A stretch of 64,000 nt of DNA from Spirochaetota bacterium (GTDB taxonomy: Bacteria > Spirochaetota > UBA4802 > UBA5368), in assembly GCA_035477215.1 (NCBI GenBank), contig DATIKU010000061.1, positions 62,001 to 126,000 on the forward strand, given 5' to 3'. Below, piece after piece: positions 2,071 through 8,539 of this stretch. The notes under the pieces were generated by a model. It did no database searches. It worked only from the letters and a program-made list of their open reading frames with translations, and had not been told where the DNA came from. Within the stretch, counting starts at the first letter, position 1. Every line of letters starts with the position of its first letter. A program made the position numbers and the translations under genes.

Positions 2071-2847
2071 TTATATGTTTTTGAACACCGGTTTCCGTTT
2101 TTCAAGAAACGCCCGTATGCCCTCTTCCTTATCCTCGCTGGCGGCGAGCTTTCCGAAAAGTTCGCTTTCCAGCGCAAGTCCTTCACTCATCGAAAGCCTG
2201 CCGCCTGTGATAACCGCCTCGACGATCGCGCGGACGGCGAGCTGTCCCTTCGAAGCGATGCTTCTCGCCAACTTCATCGCCTCGTCCACCACGTCGGCGT
2301 GCGGCACGATCCTGTTGACCAGCCCCACGCGCTCGGCCTCCTTCATGTCGATGAACTTTCCGGTAAGCATATATTCCAGCGCCCGCGCGGGGCCCAGAAG
2401 GCGCACCATGCGCTGGGTACCTCCGAAGGCGGGAATAATCCCCAGCAATATCTCGGGCAGTCCCATCTGCGCCTGATCGCCGGCTATACGCAGATGGCAC
2501 GCCAGTGCGAGCTCGGTGCCCCCGCCGAGGGCGAGGCCGTTTATCGCCGCGATATACGGCTTCCTGGAATTTTCGATAAGGTTCAAGATGCCCTGAGCCC
2601 GGGCGGTGACCGCGACACCGTCCTCGAAGGTCTTCACATCGCGAACGCGATTGATGTCTGCGCCGACAATGAACATGGGCCCATCCCCGGTGATCACCGC
2701 GACCTTCGAATCGGTATCGGCATTTATCCGCCCGACAGTCTCCTCCAGGCCCATGAGCAACTCTTCGTCAAACGCGTTCATCGGCGGATTCGCGAGGGTA
2801 ATCAACGCCACTCCCTTCCCGTCGGTCAGGCAGGTGCATTTCCCCAT
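2071..2847 (-). CDS. enoyl-CoA hydratase (crotonase family)
   Basis: A 258-residue crotonase. Both catalytic glutamates of canonical enoyl-CoA hydratases are present: one in GGGTELALAC and one in GLPEILLGIIPAFGGTQR. The oxyanion-hole region GADINRV is also recognisable. It should hydrate a trans-2-enoyl-CoA in the cytoplasm as part of a beta-oxidation-like sequence. The ATG at 2847 is preceded by AGGGGTGG with 8 nt spacing; an in-frame GTG at 2859 lies inside that ribosome-binding site and is unlikely. It sits between the DUF35-BKACE fusion and the acyl-CoA synthetase in the same operon. Substrate unknown. Confidence 0.9.
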   Translation of the reverse strand: MGKCTCLTDGKGVALITLANPPMNAFDEELLMGLEETVGRINADTDSKVAVITGDGPMFIVGADINRVRDVKTFEDGVAVTARAQGILNLIENSRKPYIAAINGLALGGGTELALACHLRIAGDQAQMGLPEILLGIIPAFGGTQRMVRLLGPARALEYMLTGKFIDMKEAERVGLVNRIVPHADVVDEAMKLARSIASKGQLAVRAIVEAVITGGRLSMSEGLALESELFGKLAASEDKEEGIRAFLEKRKPVFKNI

Positions 2848-2914
2848 GATCGTTTCCACCCCTGTTCGGATTTGAATCCGCGCGGGAACGTAACCCGTCC
2901 CCGCGCGGTGTCCA

Positions 2915-4336
2915 TTAGCGCTTCTTCAGTCCCATGATCTCACGCGCCTCGTCCGGGGTGGCTGGTTCCCTGCCCTGGCACTCGGCGATGCGAACGGCCC
3001 ATTCGACCTGCTCGTAACTTCCCTTTGCCATCTCGCCGTTCGGTATACGGATGTTGTCCTCGAGGCCAACCCGCATGTGGCCGCCCACCAGACAGGACAT
3101 CGTGACGGCCGGGAACTGGTCATTACCCACGCCGCAGGTGGTGAAGTTAGCGCCTGCGGGAATCGCGTTTTTCAGACACAGGAATGCATCGGGCCTGAAT
3201 GCCTGGCCGCCCGCTACGCCCCACACAAAGTTGAAATTCATCGGTTCGCTGAAAAAGCCCTGTTTCATGATAAGCATCGTGTTGTCGAGGCCGCCCATGT
3301 CATAGACCTCGATCTCCGGCTTTACGCCGTTTTCCTCCATGGCCTTGCCGAAGTTCTGCAGCATGGTGAAGGTGTTCTCGAACACGAAATCGATGAAGAT
3401 CTTTCCGGTCTTGCGGTCGAGCAGGCTGAAGTTCATGGTATTGGTATTGAGCGACGCCATCTCCGGTTTGACATGGATGATCTGGCTGATGCGCTGTTCG
3501 GCGGTCTTGCCCATACCAACGGCCGAGCTCATGTTTACGATGAGCTCGGGGCACTTTCCCCTGATGGCGTCGTAGGTAGCCTTAATGCGCGCGTGATCAT
3601 GCGTCGCCATCCCTCCATCCTCGCGCGCATGCACATGCACCATCGCAGCGCCGGCCTTGTAGCACTTGTAGGCCTCTTCGGCGAATTCCTGGGGCGAATA
3701 GGGTACGGCGGGATTCTGGTTCTTCATCGTGGCGGCTCCGGCAAGCGCCGCGGTGATAATAACCTTCCTCGACATCGCTTTTCTCCTTTCATCCAGCCCG
3801 GGCTGGGGTTCTATTTTTGCCGCCGCCGGGGCCTTTTCGGCCGGCGCGCGCTCGGATACCTGCACCTTCTTCGTTTTGGACGGCGCGAAGTGGTCGATAT
3901 CGAGAATTGTATTGGTTGTTTCATCGGCGAATACCGCTTCAACCTTCATGCCAATCTCAACCTGTTCAGGTTTCAAACCGTCGAGGATATGGGCAAACGG
4001 CGTATCGGCACCATCGAGTTTGATGAGGGCCAGAATATACGGCGCCTTGCGTGGAAGGTGACCATCGTTATAGCGGACCACGGTAAAATTAACGACCTCC
4101 CCGATGTTCCCAAGCTCGACCCAGTTGTTTCGAATGTCCTCAAGGCATCGCTCACAGGTCTGCCTGGGCGGAATGAATACTTTATTACACTTGTCGCATT
4201 TCACCCCCATTATTTTCTTCTGGTCTCTTATGGTGGTGATGAACTTGCTTCCCACCCTCCCCGCGAAGTACGAATAGGGGAGTGCGAGTTTCCCGTTTAC
4301 GACGAAACAATCCTTCCGATCATAGTCCAGACTCAT
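2915..4336 (-). CDS. DUF35 (zinc ribbon/OB-fold) - BKACE fusion protein
   Basis: A 473-residue protein with two domains normally encoded separately. Residues 1-155 form a DUF35 module: a zinc ribbon with Cys47, Cys50, Cys61 and Cys64, followed by an OB-fold. Residues 156-187 are an Ala/Pro/Lys-rich linker. Residues 188-473 form a beta-keto acid cleavage enzyme (BKACE, DUF849, Kce family), which converts a beta-keto acid plus acetyl-CoA into acetoacetate plus an acyl-CoA. The metal-binding HVH is at 234-236, and the RVGLEDN motif (Arg422, Glu426, Asp427) matches catalytic and metal residues of Kce. The ATG at 4336 follows AGGAGG. An internal ATG at 3775, preceded by AAAGGAGA, could also yield free BKACE of 286 residues. 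DUF35 modules usually pair with thiolase-fold proteins, and two such genes lie upstream. Confidence 0.85.
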   Translation of the reverse strand: MSLDYDRKDCFVVNGKLALPYSYFAGRVGSKFITTIRDQKKIMGVKCDKCNKVFIPPRQTCERCLEDIRNNWVELGNIGEVVNFTVVRYNDGHLPRKAPYILALIKLDGADTPFAHILDGLKPEQVEIGMKVEAVFADETTNTILDIDHFAPSKTKKVQVSERAPAEKAPAAAKIEPQPGLDERRKAMSRKVIITAALAGAATMKNQNPAVPYSPQEFAEEAYKCYKAGAAMVHVHAREDGGMATHDHARIKATYDAIRGKCPELIVNMSSAVGMGKTAEQRISQIIHVKPEMASLNTNTMNFSLLDRKTGKIFIDFVFENTFTMLQNFGKAMEENGVKPEIEVYDMGGLDNTMLIMKQGFFSEPMNFNFVWGVAGGQAFRPDAFLCLKNAIPAGANFTTCGVGNDQFPAVTMSCLVGGHMRVGLEDNIRIPNGEMAKGSYEQVEWAVRIAECQGREPATPDEAREIMGLKKR

Positions 4337-4347
4337 CGTTCCCCTCC

Positions 4348-5538
4348 TCACTCATCTATCTCAAAATACTTGATATCAAAGATGCTGCCCACGCGCTTGT
4401 CGCTCCAGACTGGACGGACGCGGGTCCCCGATATCTCGTAGTGGCCCCCCTTTATCAGGTCGAGCTGGTCGCGCCGTACCAGATGGGCGAAGGTGTCGTT
4501 CCCCCCGCACCCGTCCAACAGGATGTTCAACATGCCGTATGGAGTCTCCCGCGTCTCCCCGGTGAGAGGGTCCGGGCTGGCGTAATACACGTATTCCATG
4601 TATCGCACCTGTCCCTTCGGCCCCACTTCAACCCATTCGTCCGCGCGTACCCGGCAATCCGCGCATACCTCGCGCGCGGGAAGCTGTATCCGGCCGCATG
4701 TGGGACATTTTGTGCCGAAAATCTTTTTCTCTTTCAGGGCATTCAGAAACCGTCCCATCACCGGTCCTGTCGCGAATCGCTGATTCACCGCGATTGTTTT
4801 TTTTAACACTATCAGCTCCTGTTCCGGCTCCCCATCCGTCGAGGAGGGCGGCTGGTATTTCGCGAAGATCTCCCCCAGCTTCAGCGCAAGCGCGGTCTCG
4901 CCCGCAATGGCCGCCCTGCCGGCCGAAAGAAGCGAGAACGGGTCGGTCTTGCCCAGCATCACATCAACCCAGTCACTGGCCTCGTTCACCTCAAGCCGCA
5001 CCGTGGGCTTCTCGACATGCCCCTCTTTCAACTCGCACGTACCGTCCTTTATTGTCGCGGTCCACACGCCTCCGCCTTCCCCGCCTATCTGGTAGGTGAT
5101 CGTGGCGTTGAGATCCTTGGCGTTCTGCGGCTGGAAGCGGCTCACCAGCGACCCGAACATGTCGAGGATGTAGTCCTTCGTCGACATCTCCTTCCTGCCG
5201 ATTACGAATTTCTTGAACATCTTCGCGGTTTTGCCGAAGGCGCCAAAATCCCCCTCGACCTTCACCTTGCCCGAGGTAAACGCATTGACACTGTCCACCT
5301 TGCCGGTGTTCACGCCGACGAAAGTCTCTCCGTCGCAGAGCATAATCGAGGCGCAGCCGGAAAGATCGTCGATTTTCTCCACCTTGAGCGTTCCGCCCTT
5401 GACTGTTATCTTCCATTTACCCTCACCGGCGATGTCGTACCCGAACGAGGCGTCGACATCCCTCGCTCCCTCTTCGCGGAAGCGTTCGGGCATTGTGTTG
5501 AAAATATCCCCTACTTTGACTCCCCAGTATTCTGCCAT
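4348..5538 (-). CDS. SCP2-SCP2-DUF35 fusion protein
   Basis: A 396-residue protein. Residues about 5-115 and 120-232 look like two tandem SCP2 (sterol-carrier) domains, each ending in an Ala/Gly/Lys-rich helix (for example GDFGAFGKTAKMFKKF). Residues 255-396 are a DUF35 zinc ribbon plus OB-fold with Cys278, Cys281, Cys292 and Cys295. SCP2 domains bind hydrophobic acyl or sterol groups; DUF35 domains are non-catalytic partners of thiolase-fold enzymes and of the steroid aldolase Ltp2. The fusion therefore may deliver a greasy acyl-CoA to the thiolase-like subunits encoded just upstream. Start: ATG at 5538 after AAGGGGGA. It is separated from the thiolase-like gene by 10 bp and from the DUF35-BKACE fusion by 11 bp. 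The second SCP2 assignment is less certain than the first. Confidence 0.8.
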   Translation of the reverse strand: MAEYWGVKVGDIFNTMPERFREEGARDVDASFGYDIAGEGKWKITVKGGTLKVEKIDDLSGCASIMLCDGETFVGVNTGKVDSVNAFTSGKVKVEGDFGAFGKTAKMFKKFVIGRKEMSTKDYILDMFGSLVSRFQPQNAKDLNATITYQIGGEGGGVWTATIKDGTCELKEGHVEKPTVRLEVNEASDWVDVMLGKTDPFSLLSAGRAAIAGETALALKLGEIFAKYQPPSSTDGEPEQELIVLKKTIAVNQRFATGPVMGRFLNALKEKKIFGTKCPTCGRIQLPAREVCADCRVRADEWVEVGPKGQVRYMEYVYYASPDPLTGETRETPYGMLNILLDGCGGNDTFAHLVRRDQLDLIKGGHYEISGTRVRPVWSDKRVGSIFDIKYFEIDE

Positions 5539-5548
5539 TCTGTCCCCC

Positions 5549-6748
5549 TTACCAGTTGAGTTCCTTTTCGAGCATCATGAGCACCGTCCACATGGTACCG
5601 CCAAATCCCGACGCCAGCGCGTGCCTGACTGGAGAGGGTATCTGGTGTTTTCCCGCATCGCCGCGTATCTGCAGCGCCGCCTCAGCGACGCGTATCAGGG
5701 CGGTTGCGCTGATGGGATTGGACGCGATCACGCCGCCCGAGGGATTGATGGGCATCTTTCCGCCTATCATTATGTCCTTGTTCTCCACGAGCCTCAGGTG
5801 CTCGTCGCCTTTCAGCAGGAAAAAATCGCGAAGCCAGTCGAGGGCCCACCACGAGGCCGGATCGTACATCTCGAACACGTCGAAATATTCGAGTGGTTTG
5901 CCGATACCGTTTCGCTTGTAAAGGTTTTCCGCGGCGACGCGCATTGTCGTCTGAACGGGAAACTTCTCGTCGTACCCGAAGATATTGAAGGTTTCTTCCC
6001 TGTGGATGGTGATATGATCTCGTATCCACACCGGTTTTTTCGAGATTTTTTTCGCCTTTTTCTCCTCCGCGAAGATAACAGCGCACGCGCCGTCCGATTG
6101 CGAGCACATATCTATGAGCTTGAGGTCGCCGACGAGCTTCGGCGAAGTTCGGATAAGCTCATCGATCTGTTCGAATTCCAGGCCGAACGCGCGATGAGCC
6201 AGCGAATTAAGGCAGGCGTGCTTGTCCATTATGATGCGGTACATGAGCGAGGCCCGCTTCCCCCGCTCCTCGCCGAATTCGCGGATAACGTCGTACGCCT
6301 TCGAACCGGTCAGTGCGCCGGTCTGGAGATTGCGAAACCACAGCGGATCGGCCATGTTCGTGATACCGCCCGTGGTATGACCTTCCTGCAGCTTCTGAAA
6401 GCCGATGGCCATCACTATGTCGTACATCCCCGAAGCCACAAAATTGTCCGCCGCACAGGCGATAGTGGCGCCTACGGTGCCGCCCGTGGTGATTCTGATG
6501 CAATTTTTGCCGTATGCTCCGGTGCCTATCACGTGCCAGAGATCGGGCTGGTGCACCATCTCGAAAAGCTCCATGTTTCCGTGCACCACGCAATCGATGT
6601 CGTTCATTGTGATGCCCGCGTCCTCAAGCGCCGCTTTCACCGCCTCGTGTATCATTTCCGGCTGGTTCACGTCCTCGCGGTGGCTTGAATACTTCGTCTG
6701 TCCTATGCCAATGATTCCGACGTTTTTATTCTTTTTTCTGTGTGCCAT
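5549..6748 (-). CDS. thiolase-like protein (SCPx/DUF35-partner type), atypical active site
   Basis: A 399-residue thiolase-fold protein with N-terminal VGIIGIGQTKYS and a recognisable GFQKLQEG segment after the nucleophile helix, as in SCP2/SCPx thiolases. The nucleophile region reads RITTGGTVGATIAC: when aligned to NCATGSTAL of SCPx thiolases the cysteine position falls on Gly90 (Thr87-Thr88 nearby). The normal GHP histidine near the C terminus is SNP (Asn344) after a conserved NPSGG. It is thus unlikely to be an ordinary thiolase; it may be a thiolase-fold retro-aldolase or a structural partner. Start: ATG at 6748 after GGAGG. It is 12 bp after the other thiolase-like gene, suggesting an alpha/beta pair. 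Confidence 0.8.
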   Translation of the reverse strand: MAHRKKNKNVGIIGIGQTKYSSHREDVNQPEMIHEAVKAALEDAGITMNDIDCVVHGNMELFEMVHQPDLWHVIGTGAYGKNCIRITTGGTVGATIACAADNFVASGMYDIVMAIGFQKLQEGHTTGGITNMADPLWFRNLQTGALTGSKAYDVIREFGEERGKRASLMYRIIMDKHACLNSLAHRAFGLEFEQIDELIRTSPKLVGDLKLIDMCSQSDGACAVIFAEEKKAKKISKKPVWIRDHITIHREETFNIFGYDEKFPVQTTMRVAAENLYKRNGIGKPLEYFDVFEMYDPASWWALDWLRDFFLLKGDEHLRLVENKDIMIGGKMPINPSGGVIASNPISATALIRVAEAALQIRGDAGKHQIPSPVRHALASGFGGTMWTVLMMLEKELNW

Positions 6749-6760
6749 TGACGAACCTCC

Positions 6761-7906
6761 CTACGCTTCCATGATGACGACGGCCTGGTGCTGCCCCGCG
6801 GCCCCGTAGGTGCCGTGCGCGAGCGCCTTTTTGACACCGTCCACCTGGCGGTCTCCCGCCTCCCCGCGCAGTTGATAGAAACATTCGATCGCGCGAGCCG
6901 CCCCCCCGAGAAGAAAAGGATTCCCGTTCAGCATGCCGCCGGAAAGGTTCACATGGAATTTATCCATCCCGCCTTTATCGACCCACGCGCCCCCTTTGCC
7001 CTCGTCCACAATACCGATTCCCTCGGCCCACATGGGAAGCTGATACGCGGCATGGTCGCAGAGCTCGAAAATTTGAATGTCCTTCTTCGGATCCTTTATA
7101 CCCGCCATTTTGTAAGCGCGTTCGGAGGCCTTTTTGAGTGAGAAATTCGAAACATATTCCCTGTCGCCCGGAAAATAGCTGTCCATGCAATTGGCGAATC
7201 CGGTAATCCATACCGGGTTTTTGCTGAACTCCTTCGCGCGCTCCTCGCAGCACAGCAGCATCCCGAAGGCCCAGTCGGTGATGGGATAGTAGTGCAACTC
7301 GCGCAGCGGATCGGCGAGGAGCGGGGAGCTCATAACCTTCGCCTCGTCAATCTCCTCGTTCTCCCGCGCATAAGGATTTTTCTTCGCGTTTTTCCTGGAA
7401 CGCACCACGATCCTCGCCAGATGCTCTTCCTGGACGCCCGACCTTTGGCCATAGGCCCGCGCCTGAAGGGCGTTCATGTTCATGTTATCCAGACCCAGTG
7501 GCCGGCAATAAAAAGGATCGAATGAGAGATTGGAGACCATCCTGCGGCTCTCCCCCTGCGACTCTTTCATATGCCCCATGAAGAGGATCGCGTCGTCATG
7601 CCCCGAGAGGATGCTTGCCATCGCATAGCCGAGGCCGTTAAGGCTCTCCTGGGCCATCTTCTCCTCACCCCGTAAATGCGCACCCACTACATCGGTCATA
7701 CCGTTGTTCGAAATGGTGCGGGCGTCGAACACGTCATCTGAGCAGGTAACGACGTTTCGTATGCCCTTTTCCATGTCGAAGGTTACTCCGGTCTGCTGCA
7801 TGACCGACTCGAAGCATTCCAGAAGCATGTTCTGGAATCGGGCATGCCAGAGATCGCCTTCGTTCTTGATCTGCGCCACGGCGCATATCGCGACTCGTTT
7901 ACCCAT
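6761..7906 (-). CDS. thiolase-like protein, second subunit, atypical active site
   Basis: A 381-residue divergent thiolase-fold protein and the first gene of the compact operon, with AGGAGG 9 nt before the ATG at 7906. No cysteine is found between residue 55 and about residue 135, where the nucleophile should be; the aligned stretch is EKMAQESLNGLGYAMAS. The C-terminal motif is NLSGG followed by GNP (Asn329 in place of the catalytic His of GHP). A histidine remains in ALAHGTYGAAGQ. The fold call rests on these positional motifs plus length and the neighbour. Together with the next gene it could form a heteromeric thiolase-like core that docks DUF35 domains. Catalysis, if any, must use other residues. 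Confidence 0.72.
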   Translation of the reverse strand: MGKRVAICAVAQIKNEGDLWHARFQNMLLECFESVMQQTGVTFDMEKGIRNVVTCSDDVFDARTISNNGMTDVVGAHLRGEEKMAQESLNGLGYAMASILSGHDDAILFMGHMKESQGESRRMVSNLSFDPFYCRPLGLDNMNMNALQARAYGQRSGVQEEHLARIVVRSRKNAKKNPYARENEEIDEAKVMSSPLLADPLRELHYYPITDWAFGMLLCCEERAKEFSKNPVWITGFANCMDSYFPGDREYVSNFSLKKASERAYKMAGIKDPKKDIQIFELCDHAAYQLPMWAEGIGIVDEGKGGAWVDKGGMDKFHVNLSGGMLNGNPFLLGGAARAIECFYQLRGEAGDRQVDGVKKALAHGTYGAAGQHQAVVIMEA

Positions 7907-7990: not shown

Positions 7991-8539
7991 TTATATGTAA
8001 CAGTTCCAGAAATCACCCTGCCTGATCCTCTTGATAATCGAGTCCTTATCCCTCGGCGCGTCGAGCTCGATCCAGGCCCGCCCCACTCCAAGACGCGTGT
8101 GCGCGTCGTCGGAGGCTATCTTGGGGTAGCGTATCTCCGGTATTTCGTATTCCGGATTCCGAAACCCATTCGAGGTTATCTCAACCGCGTCCAGCGGAAA
8201 CATCTCGGCCACGGTTTCGATTCTTTGCAGTACCTGCCCCATACCGAGGTCATATTCGCCAAGGTGGTTAAGGATATACAACTCCTCCTCGTCGCCGTGT
8301 ATGCGGTTTACGTGCACATACCCCTTAACGAAAACGGTAAGCTCGACCCCCTCGAAGATGATCATCCCCGAGCTCACCTCGCGGTAGAGCTCGATGCTTT
8401 GTGGCTTGAGGAGATAGTCATGATCGGTAAACGCGATGAAGTCATACCCCTTCTCCTCGTAGGCGTCCGCAACCTGCTGCGGCGTCAGCTTGCCGTCGGA
8501 GCAGGTGGTATGCGTGTGCAGACAGCCTTTTATCAGCAT
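7991..8539 (-). CDS. PHP-domain metal-dependent phosphoesterase
   Basis: A 182-residue PHP-domain protein. Metal ligands expected for the family are visible: HTHTTCSDG (His8, His10), FTDHD (Asp39, His40), GVELT (Glu66), NHLG (His92) and SDDAHT near residue 145. It is short, holding only the PHP core, without polymerase or histidinol-phosphatase extras. The reaction is probably hydrolysis of a phosphoester; the substrate is unknown. There is no strong Shine-Dalgarno before the ATG at 8539. It lies 84 bp upstream of the thiolase-like operon on the same strand and could share its transcript, but that gap is much larger than the gaps inside the operon. Confidence 0.85.
   Translation of the reverse strand: MLIKGCLHTHTTCSDGKLTPQQVADAYEEKGYDFIAFTDHDYLLKPQSIELYREVSSGMIIFEGVELTVFVKGYVHVNRIHGDEEELYILNHLGEYDLGMGQVLQRIETVAEMFPLDAVEITSNGFRNPEYEIPEIRYPKIASDDAHTRLGVGRAWIELDAPRDKDSIIKRIRQGDFWNCYI

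Follow-up and report, generated by a model that had tools for sequence, protein, structure and literature searches.

In the steroid aldolases TcLtp2 and CtSal (Protein Data Bank (PDB) entries 6ok1 and 9myr), a protein of the thiolase fold works with a DUF35 partner, ChsH2 or Shy. According to the portion of PMC12329534 available to us, the thiolase nucleophile site is a Gly in both enzymes, its backbone touches the substrate hydroxyl, and the catalytic residues are Tyr302 and Cys304 (motif YDCY) in CtSal and Tyr294 (YDHF) and Tyr344 in TcLtp2, where Tyr344 matches Gln352 of CtSal. Ltp3–Ltp4 is termed a heteromeric aldol-lyase for C24-branched sterols in the excerpt at hand of a review (PMC6678751), and a corresponding excerpt of PMC6593523 gives ltp3 and ltp4 as aldol lyases in a list that also has echA19 and fadD19. 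No structure or enzymology of Ltp3/Ltp4 was found in the literature that we searched, where these proteins are known through genetics and annotation. Here, we describe two adjacent genes for thiolase-fold proteins, Thi2 and Thi1, from a Spirochaetota bacterium (assembly GCA_035477215.1, contig DATIKU010000061.1, positions 62,001 to 126,000); this whole stretch of 64,000 nucleotides is hereafter called the window (G000:C61:62001-126000 in our numbering). Their products probably form a heteromeric, DUF35-bound thiolase-fold retro-aldolase of the Ltp4/Ltp3 kind, in which Thi1 would be the catalytic and Thi2 a mainly structural subunit, while DUF35 domains would dock SCP2 and BKACE partners.

A sequence-only reading of the window had proposed that both proteins keep the thiolase fold and lack the thiolase Cys and His, which is confirmed by structural models, alignments and residue conservation. 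The alignments comprise 88 rows for Thi1 and 76 for Thi2, that is, the window proteins with their homologues (87 for Thi1) from 74 related loci, matches below 80% length or 30% identity being dropped; these loci come from the best 80 of 123 matching stretches, and more distant relatives lie outside all counts based on them. When Thi1 is aligned by HMMER (phmmer against PDB) to the zebrafish SCP2-thiolase (6hsj/6hrv), Gly90 falls on the nucleophilic Cys and Asn344 (the Asn of an SNP motif) on the His of GHP, exactly as had been read from the letters, while Tyr295 and Pro297 occupy the places of His and Cys in the HDCF motif. Six residues, Gly90, Cys215, Tyr295, Asp296, Pro297 and Asn344, are invariant (88/88 each), and the full conservation of Gly90, Asn344 and Tyr295-Asp296-Pro297 means that the residue loss is not a chance event of one sequence. 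Cys83, which the sequence-only reading had singled out as the residue that might take the nucleophile site after all, is variable (Cys in only 18 of the 88 rows, Ser in 27, Thr in 16 and Ala in 11).

The Thi2 site has changed in another manner. Its Cys residues are 8, 31, 55, 134, 219, 220, 240, 283 and 342, so the predicted Cys-free segment between 55 and about 135 is real, and the nucleophile region within it reads AQESLNG. Cys occurs at residue 85 in two of the 76 rows and is otherwise absent from the four commonest residues at positions 84–97. At the base position (Cys283 here) we found Ser in 36, Asn in 20, Cys in 8 and Met in 7 rows, and at the next key position His (21), Ala (21) or Gln (20); the GHP motif is replaced by GNP, as also predicted, with Asn in 68/76 rows. 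Cys-bearing thiolases of the same genome used as controls (loci L009 and L011) keep Cys, HD and GHP. The residue set of a catalytic thiolase (nucleophilic Cys plus GHP His) is thus absent from both proteins, and the losses are fixed yet differ: the site of Thi1 is rewritten and invariant, the site of Thi2 has drifted.

The rewritten Thi1 site shares with Ltp2 and Sal both the Gly at the nucleophile position and the base Tyr, Tyr295, an equivalence that goes through the HDCF motif of the SCP2-thiolase and the motif statements in the accessible part of PMC12329534.

AlphaFold models built on 56 (Thi1) and 49 (Thi2) sequences represent confident thiolase folds, the mean predicted local distance difference test (pLDDT) being 85.6 and 89.2, respectively, with residues 122–144 of Thi1 below 50. 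The top structural matches of both chains are solved DUF35-binding thiolases: 6esq for Thi1 (Z 49.6, root-mean-square deviation (rmsd) 2.3, 377 residues aligned), along with 7pyt (47.7, 2.4, 371), and 6esq for Thi2 (49.1, 2.2, 370), along with PhlC, 5m3k (46.0, 2.4, 363). The aldolases Sal (9myr) and Ltp2 (6ok1) match Thi1 with Z 42.7 (rmsd 3.0, 374 residues) and 41.5 (2.9, 363), and Thi2 with Z 42.5 (2.9, 360) and 41.0 (2.5, 350). In the 6esq system, as described in the excerpt of PMC12329534, DUF35 joins two enzymes that use coenzyme A (CoA) at a common CoA site; unlike our pair, its thiolase keeps Cys and His, and its partner is a synthase, not BKACE. The benzoylsuccinyl-CoA thiolase BbsAB (7pxp, 7pyt) is likewise a DUF35-bound thiolase fold of anaerobes, but with the NCBIfam BbsB model, whose cut-off is 750 bits, the pair scores only 66 and 72. 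TcLtp2 and CtSal have a homodimer where two different thiolase-fold chains occur here.

Adjacent thiolase-fold pairs were also found by tblastn on plasmids. In two annotated regions (Tsukamurella and S. clavuligerus) a double-DUF35 protein is followed by an A and then a B subunit, with an acyl-CoA ligase nearby. Tsukamurella A and B, which we take to be ltp4 and ltp3 with the support of the gene lists, pass the curated cut-offs of PRK07937 (A, 593 bits) and PRK08313 (B, 734 bits). The closest system to our pair is presumably of the Rv3521–Rv3522/ltp4–Rv3523/ltp3 kind. Thi1, the actinobacterial B subunits, one Cupriavidus B subunit and Thi4 (a Thi1-like protein encoded left of the window) have a common signature, Gly / Tyr-x-Pro / Asn-Pro. 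In a midpoint-rooted tree of 50 rows, several of which stand on long branches outside the named groups, the same proteins form a B clade (support 99/98), and Thi2 together with Thi3, the neighbour of Thi4, belongs to an A clade with the actinobacterial A subunits (94/92); the four other thiolase-fold proteins of the genome fall outside both. Like ours, the actinobacterial pairs have adjacent A and B genes accompanied by two DUF35 domains, lie near an acyl-CoA ligase and a hydratase, and share the B signature and both clades. They differ in that the DUF35 domains sit here in two proteins carrying SCP2 and BKACE and the hosts are anaerobic; our search for sterol-degradation genes covered the cluster only.

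The pair is highly conserved across uncultured Spirochaetota, Smithellaceae/Syntrophaceae and Desulfobacterales. Relatives of Thi1 at 67–87% identity occur in metagenome-assembled genomes (MAGs) titled Spirochaetes, Smithella/Syntrophaceae, Desulfobacteraceae, Syntrophomonas and others, and Thi2 immediately precedes Thi1 in 82 of the 87 copies. A search for Thi1 at E 1e-60 gave a match in 34 of 296 genomes sampled from the phylum of the window; the match is full-length at no less than 75% identity in 19 and a fragment in one (G178). A fusion-length DUF35-BKACE match was detected in 20 of the 296, including all 19 with full-length Thi1; in the twentieth (G006) a Thi1 fragment lies at the contig edge. 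Our first guess, that the module serves the C6 propionate dismutation of Smithella, was dropped because it is present also in many Desulfobacterales and other lineages. No description of this module was found in the literature searched for BKACE with DUF35, thiolase with DUF35, Ltp3/Ltp4 and Rv3521–3523.

The DUF35 domains of the window belong to two fusion proteins encoded directly after the pair. In the SCP2 fusion the zinc ribbon has four Cys (278, 281, 292 and 295) and passes its Pfam cut-off (37.4 vs. 23.2 bits), while the OB part is without a Pfam match. In the BKACE fusion, DUF35 spans approximately residues 38–136 (zf-ChsH2 23.3 vs. 23.2; OB_ChsH2_C 50.7 vs. 27.1) and BKACE residues 191–470 (PF05853, 314.5 bits vs. 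a cut-off of 24.8). His234, His236, Arg422, Glu426 and Asp427 are conserved in every row that has letters at these positions; we take His234, His236 and Glu426 to be the zinc site, these and the other active-site positions being presumed from the literature on 3-keto-5-aminohexanoate cleavage enzyme (Kce) and mapped on the alignment to 2y7d. The presumed zinc ligands and the residues equivalent to Arg226 and Asp231 thus agree with Kce (2y7d, 8rip), which differs in not being fused to DUF35 and in its Glu14, replaced here by Ala (28), Gly (4) or Val (2); the equivalent of Thr106 is Ser. Because Kce Glu14 is replaced, this BKACE probably has a native substrate other than the amino acid.

The partners carried by DUF35 vary between loci. 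The DUF35-BKACE fusion was detected in 25 of the 74 loci, and in 9 more BKACE occurs solely as a separate open reading frame (ORF); 17/74 have a fusion of DUF35 with a MaoC hydratase, and an AMP-ligase precedes SCP2-DUF35 in 13/74. Hence one socket serves hydratase and cleavage partners alike, which suggests an exchangeable DUF35 socket for SCP2, AMP-ligase, MaoC and BKACE on thiolase-fold cores; BKACE is optional to the core rather than part of it. In a Desulfobacteraceae MAG (L118), an AMP-ligase fused to SCP2 domains and a DUF35 ribbon (2589-5630) replaces the SCP2-DUF35 gene of the window, and a DUF35-MaoC fusion (5634-6557) replaces DUF35-BKACE, both being confirmed by Pfam. TcLtp2/CtSal systems also have a MaoC-DUF35 fusion, with DUF35 C-terminal in ChsH2 and CtShy; in L118 DUF35 precedes MaoC, and this reverse order means that the fusions may be independent.

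From these features we propose that the pair is related to Ltp3/Ltp4 and most probably acts in the manner of Sal and Ltp2. The aldolase assignment is favoured because Thi1 has the Gly nucleophile site and invariant base Tyr of CtSal/TcLtp2 (as given in the excerpt of PMC12329534), because a paralogous copy has a MaoC hydratase joined to this DUF35, an arrangement shared with hydratase-aldolase systems, and because the kindred Ltp3/Ltp4 is termed a heteromeric aldol-lyase (PMC6678751, excerpt). The beta-hydroxyl of a 3-hydroxyacyl-CoA would be deprotonated by Tyr295 of Thi1 and held by the backbone at Gly90, the former Cys site, and cleavage of the C–C bond would yield a carbonyl compound and an acyl-CoA. 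Thi2, having lost the conserved catalytic residues, would mainly build the dimer, the pocket wall or a second DUF35 site, and the two DUF35 domains may dock the SCP2 lipid carrier and BKACE onto the pair. The sequence-only reading had offered a retro-aldolase or a purely structural subunit as alternatives; both now look right together, as a retro-aldolase with one subunit that is probably not catalytic, and that interpretation is partly supported. A plain copy of Ltp2 is disfavoured by Asn344 in the place of its acid Tyr344.

Several observations weigh against this assignment. Neither known aldolase acid is present in Thi1, where Cys304 of CtSal corresponds to Pro297 and Tyr344 of TcLtp2 to Asn344 (88/88 each), which leaves the site with a different proton-donating half; the sequence-only reading had suggested looking for Tyr at the Ltp2 catalytic positions, and of these only the base Tyr stood. 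Tyr344 and Gln352 lie 50 residues after the base, like the GHP His in the zebrafish enzyme, and Asn344 of Thi1 lies 49 after, with one gap. The pair stays below the curated cut-offs that the Tsukamurella proteins pass (Thi1 271 of 514 bits for PRK08313, Thi2 153 of 419 for PRK07937); for this and the missing catalytic residue, it was not filed as a member of the curated families. Fold matches do not tell aldolases from thiolases, and the function of Ltp3/Ltp4 is said to rest on genetics, in work attributed to Wilbrink in 2012. The putative heteromer, like catalysis itself, its direction, its substrate and the identity of its proton donor, is proposed here from the sequences, predicted fold, conservation, gene order, fusions and phylogeny.

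Lack of thiolase residues in both proteins, the drifting Thi2 site and the exchangeable cargo would also suit a pair of catalytically dead scaffolds that solely gather DUF35-tethered SCP2, BKACE, MaoC or AMP-ligase. We consider this improbable, since the rewritten site of Thi1 is fixed and common to distant B subunits, the identity of 67–87% between phyla exceeds the need of a scaffold, and the actinobacterial relatives are reported as aldol-lyase (PMC6678751 and PMC6593523, excerpts). The invariant Cys215 of Thi1 could be viewed as the displaced nucleophile of a true thiolase, as could Cys83; this was rejected as highly improbable because Cys83 is variable, the GHP His is lost too, and Cys215 lies in a C-x3-DGA motif which, in the 6esq alignment, Cys-bearing thiolases carry besides their catalytic Cys.

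An active Thi1 might also run other chemistry in the same pocket, namely forward aldol condensation or decarboxylation of a malonyl-type thioester. Aldol reactions are reversible, and an Asn at the GHP site resembles ketosynthase-type decarboxylases. Moreover, TbSLP, a Cys-less SCP2-thiolase-like protein, slowly decarboxylates malonyl-CoA, although CtSal gave no such decarboxylation, both according to the available part of PMC12329534. The neighbouring genes are of a catabolic kind, with an acyl-CoA ligase, hydratases, dehydrogenases and BKACE, and the relatives are described as lyases (PMC6678751, excerpt), which makes this alternative rather unlikely compared with the retro-aldolase.

A bolder extension of the retro-aldolase assignment concerns BKACE, which converts a beta-keto acid and acetyl-CoA into an acyl-CoA and acetoacetate (PMC11961710, in the portion available). 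In the scheme in print, Ltp3–Ltp4 cleaves a carboxylated, hydrated branch to acetyl- or propionyl-CoA and a carboxylate that needs re-thioesterification (PMC6678751, excerpt). The carboxylate left by such cleavage would be a beta-keto acid, so aldolase and BKACE could act consecutively, acetyl-CoA from the first being used by the second. We tentatively suggest, as a possibility that we would not yet expect to hold, that the pair splits an ester like 3-hydroxy-3-alkylglutaryl-CoA into a beta-keto acid and acetyl-CoA, which the tethered BKACE would turn into an acyl-CoA for beta-oxidation and acetoacetate; a beta-alkyl branch would thereby be removed in anaerobes without ATP, and the pocket would represent a third thiolase-fold aldolase site beside Ltp2 and Sal. 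Such a sequence of steps would explain the DUF35-BKACE fusion, the glutaconate-type CoA-transferase nearby and the hydratase, for the preceding step, in a paralogous copy. Against it stand the absence of BKACE from 40 of the 74 loci, and from two (G297 and G299) of four genomes checked for a match to the BKACE part, and the search for a carboxylase that would make the dicarboxylic branch, which found none in the cluster; the only Carboxyl_trans match of the genome (C34:39890-41320) belongs to another cluster and scores far under the cut-off of the sole model listed for it.

The CoA-transferase in question is a two-subunit protein left of the window (L007:10385-12220), closest among its PDB matches to glutaconate CoA-transferase 1poi. 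A CoA-transferase of this type occurs in 17 of the 34 BKACE loci and in none of the 40 without BKACE (Fisher 1e-7), or in 11/18 vs. 0/17 (1e-4) when the count is restricted to loci that have at least 9 kb of downstream sequence, statistics that ignore shared descent among loci whose contigs often end early. Its Glu51 aligns with a Glu in the beta chain of 1poi, presumably the catalytic one. A ring-opening role like that of IpdAB, which we assume the 6con/6co6 group to be, was rejected, since 1poi scores 119 and 153 bits and that group 65 and 46.

The features of the locus are collected in Table 1; the genes from Thi2 to the acyl-CoA ligase follow one another on the same strand in the order Thi2, Thi1, SCP2-DUF35, DUF35-BKACE, enoyl-CoA hydratase, acyl-CoA ligase, and the short PHP-domain gene upstream has a match in 51 of the 74 loci.

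Table 1. Features of the Thi2–Thi1 locus, numbered from the first nucleotide of the window
Feature	Position	Strand	Evidence
Thi2 (A subunit, Ltp4-like side), thiolase-fold, 381 aa	6761..7906	-	Pfam Thiolase_C_1 83.7 bits
Thi1 (B subunit, Ltp3-like side), thiolase-fold, 399 aa	5549..6748	-	Pfam Thiolase_C_1 82.5, Thiolase_N 27.9 bits
Gly90 codon of Thi1, thiolase nucleophile site	6479..6481	-	aligned to 6hsj Cys; Gly in 88/88
Tyr295 codon of Thi1, where CtSal/TcLtp2 have the catalytic-base Tyr	5864..5866	-	aligned to His of HDCF (6hsj); motif equivalence after the excerpt of PMC12329534; Tyr in 88/88
Asn344 codon of Thi1, GHP His site (Tyr344 in TcLtp2, Gln352 in CtSal)	5717..5719	-	aligned to 6hsj GHP His; Asn in 88/88
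SCP2-DUF35 fusion, 396 aa, SCP2/SCP2-like N-terminal part then DUF35	4348..5538	-	Pfam SCP2 70.0, zf-ChsH2 37.4, Alkyl_sulf_C 35.7 bits; PDB matches 3irb, 6esq_E, SCP2 chains
DUF35-BKACE fusion, 473 aa (478 aa with a GTG start at 4351)	2915..4336	-	Pfam BKACE 314.5, OB_ChsH2_C 50.7, zf-ChsH2 23.3 bits; PDB 2y7d and others
Enoyl-CoA hydratase, 262 aa	2071..2859	-	NCBIfam PRK07658 259.5, EchA19 model 210.9 bits, both below cut-offs
AMP-forming acyl-CoA ligase, 612 aa	217..2055	-	NCBIfam FadD11-type 407.3 bits, below cut-off
PHP-domain protein of 182 aa, encoded upstream of the module	7991..8539	-	Pfam PHP 30.0 bits; gene-order scan

The gene row runs on past the left edge of the window on the same strand (L007) with the two-subunit CoA-transferase, a DUF35 gene, the pair Thi3/Thi4 and another DUF35 gene. 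Farther on are a SpoIIE-type phosphatase, a TetR-like ORF, two acyl-CoA dehydrogenase-like ORFs (these names were given by inspection only) and two MaoC-type proteins. The Thi3/Thi4 region (L007:7027-10292), flanked by the two stand-alone DUF35 genes, encodes a second thiolase-like pair, in which Thi4 has the Thi1-like signature and Thi3 combines Gly and mostly Tyr with a GHP-type His. This extension, its thiolase-like pair and the fusion of the second DUF35 to BKACE go beyond the sequence-only reading. A third thiolase-like pair lies elsewhere in the genome (L169, G000:C44:9001-22500), one partner having YDP and GNP and the other being without the Cys, with two DUF35 matches on its contig. 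A further locus (L168, G000:C34:27001-46500) encodes an HMG-CoA-synthase-like protein, whose frame also has a DUF35 match, a Cys-bearing thiolase, a carotenoid-desaturase-like protein and a biotin carboxylase, and holds the Carboxyl_trans match mentioned above.

The BKACE cargo of the anaerobic version suggests the chemistry of a missing step, the re-thioesterification that follows aldol cleavage, possibly without ATP. If this is true, it would provide a testable route for beta-branched lipids in methanogenic and sulfate-reducing communities, and a role for genes which are now annotated as acetyl-CoA acetyltransferase or lipid-transfer protein.

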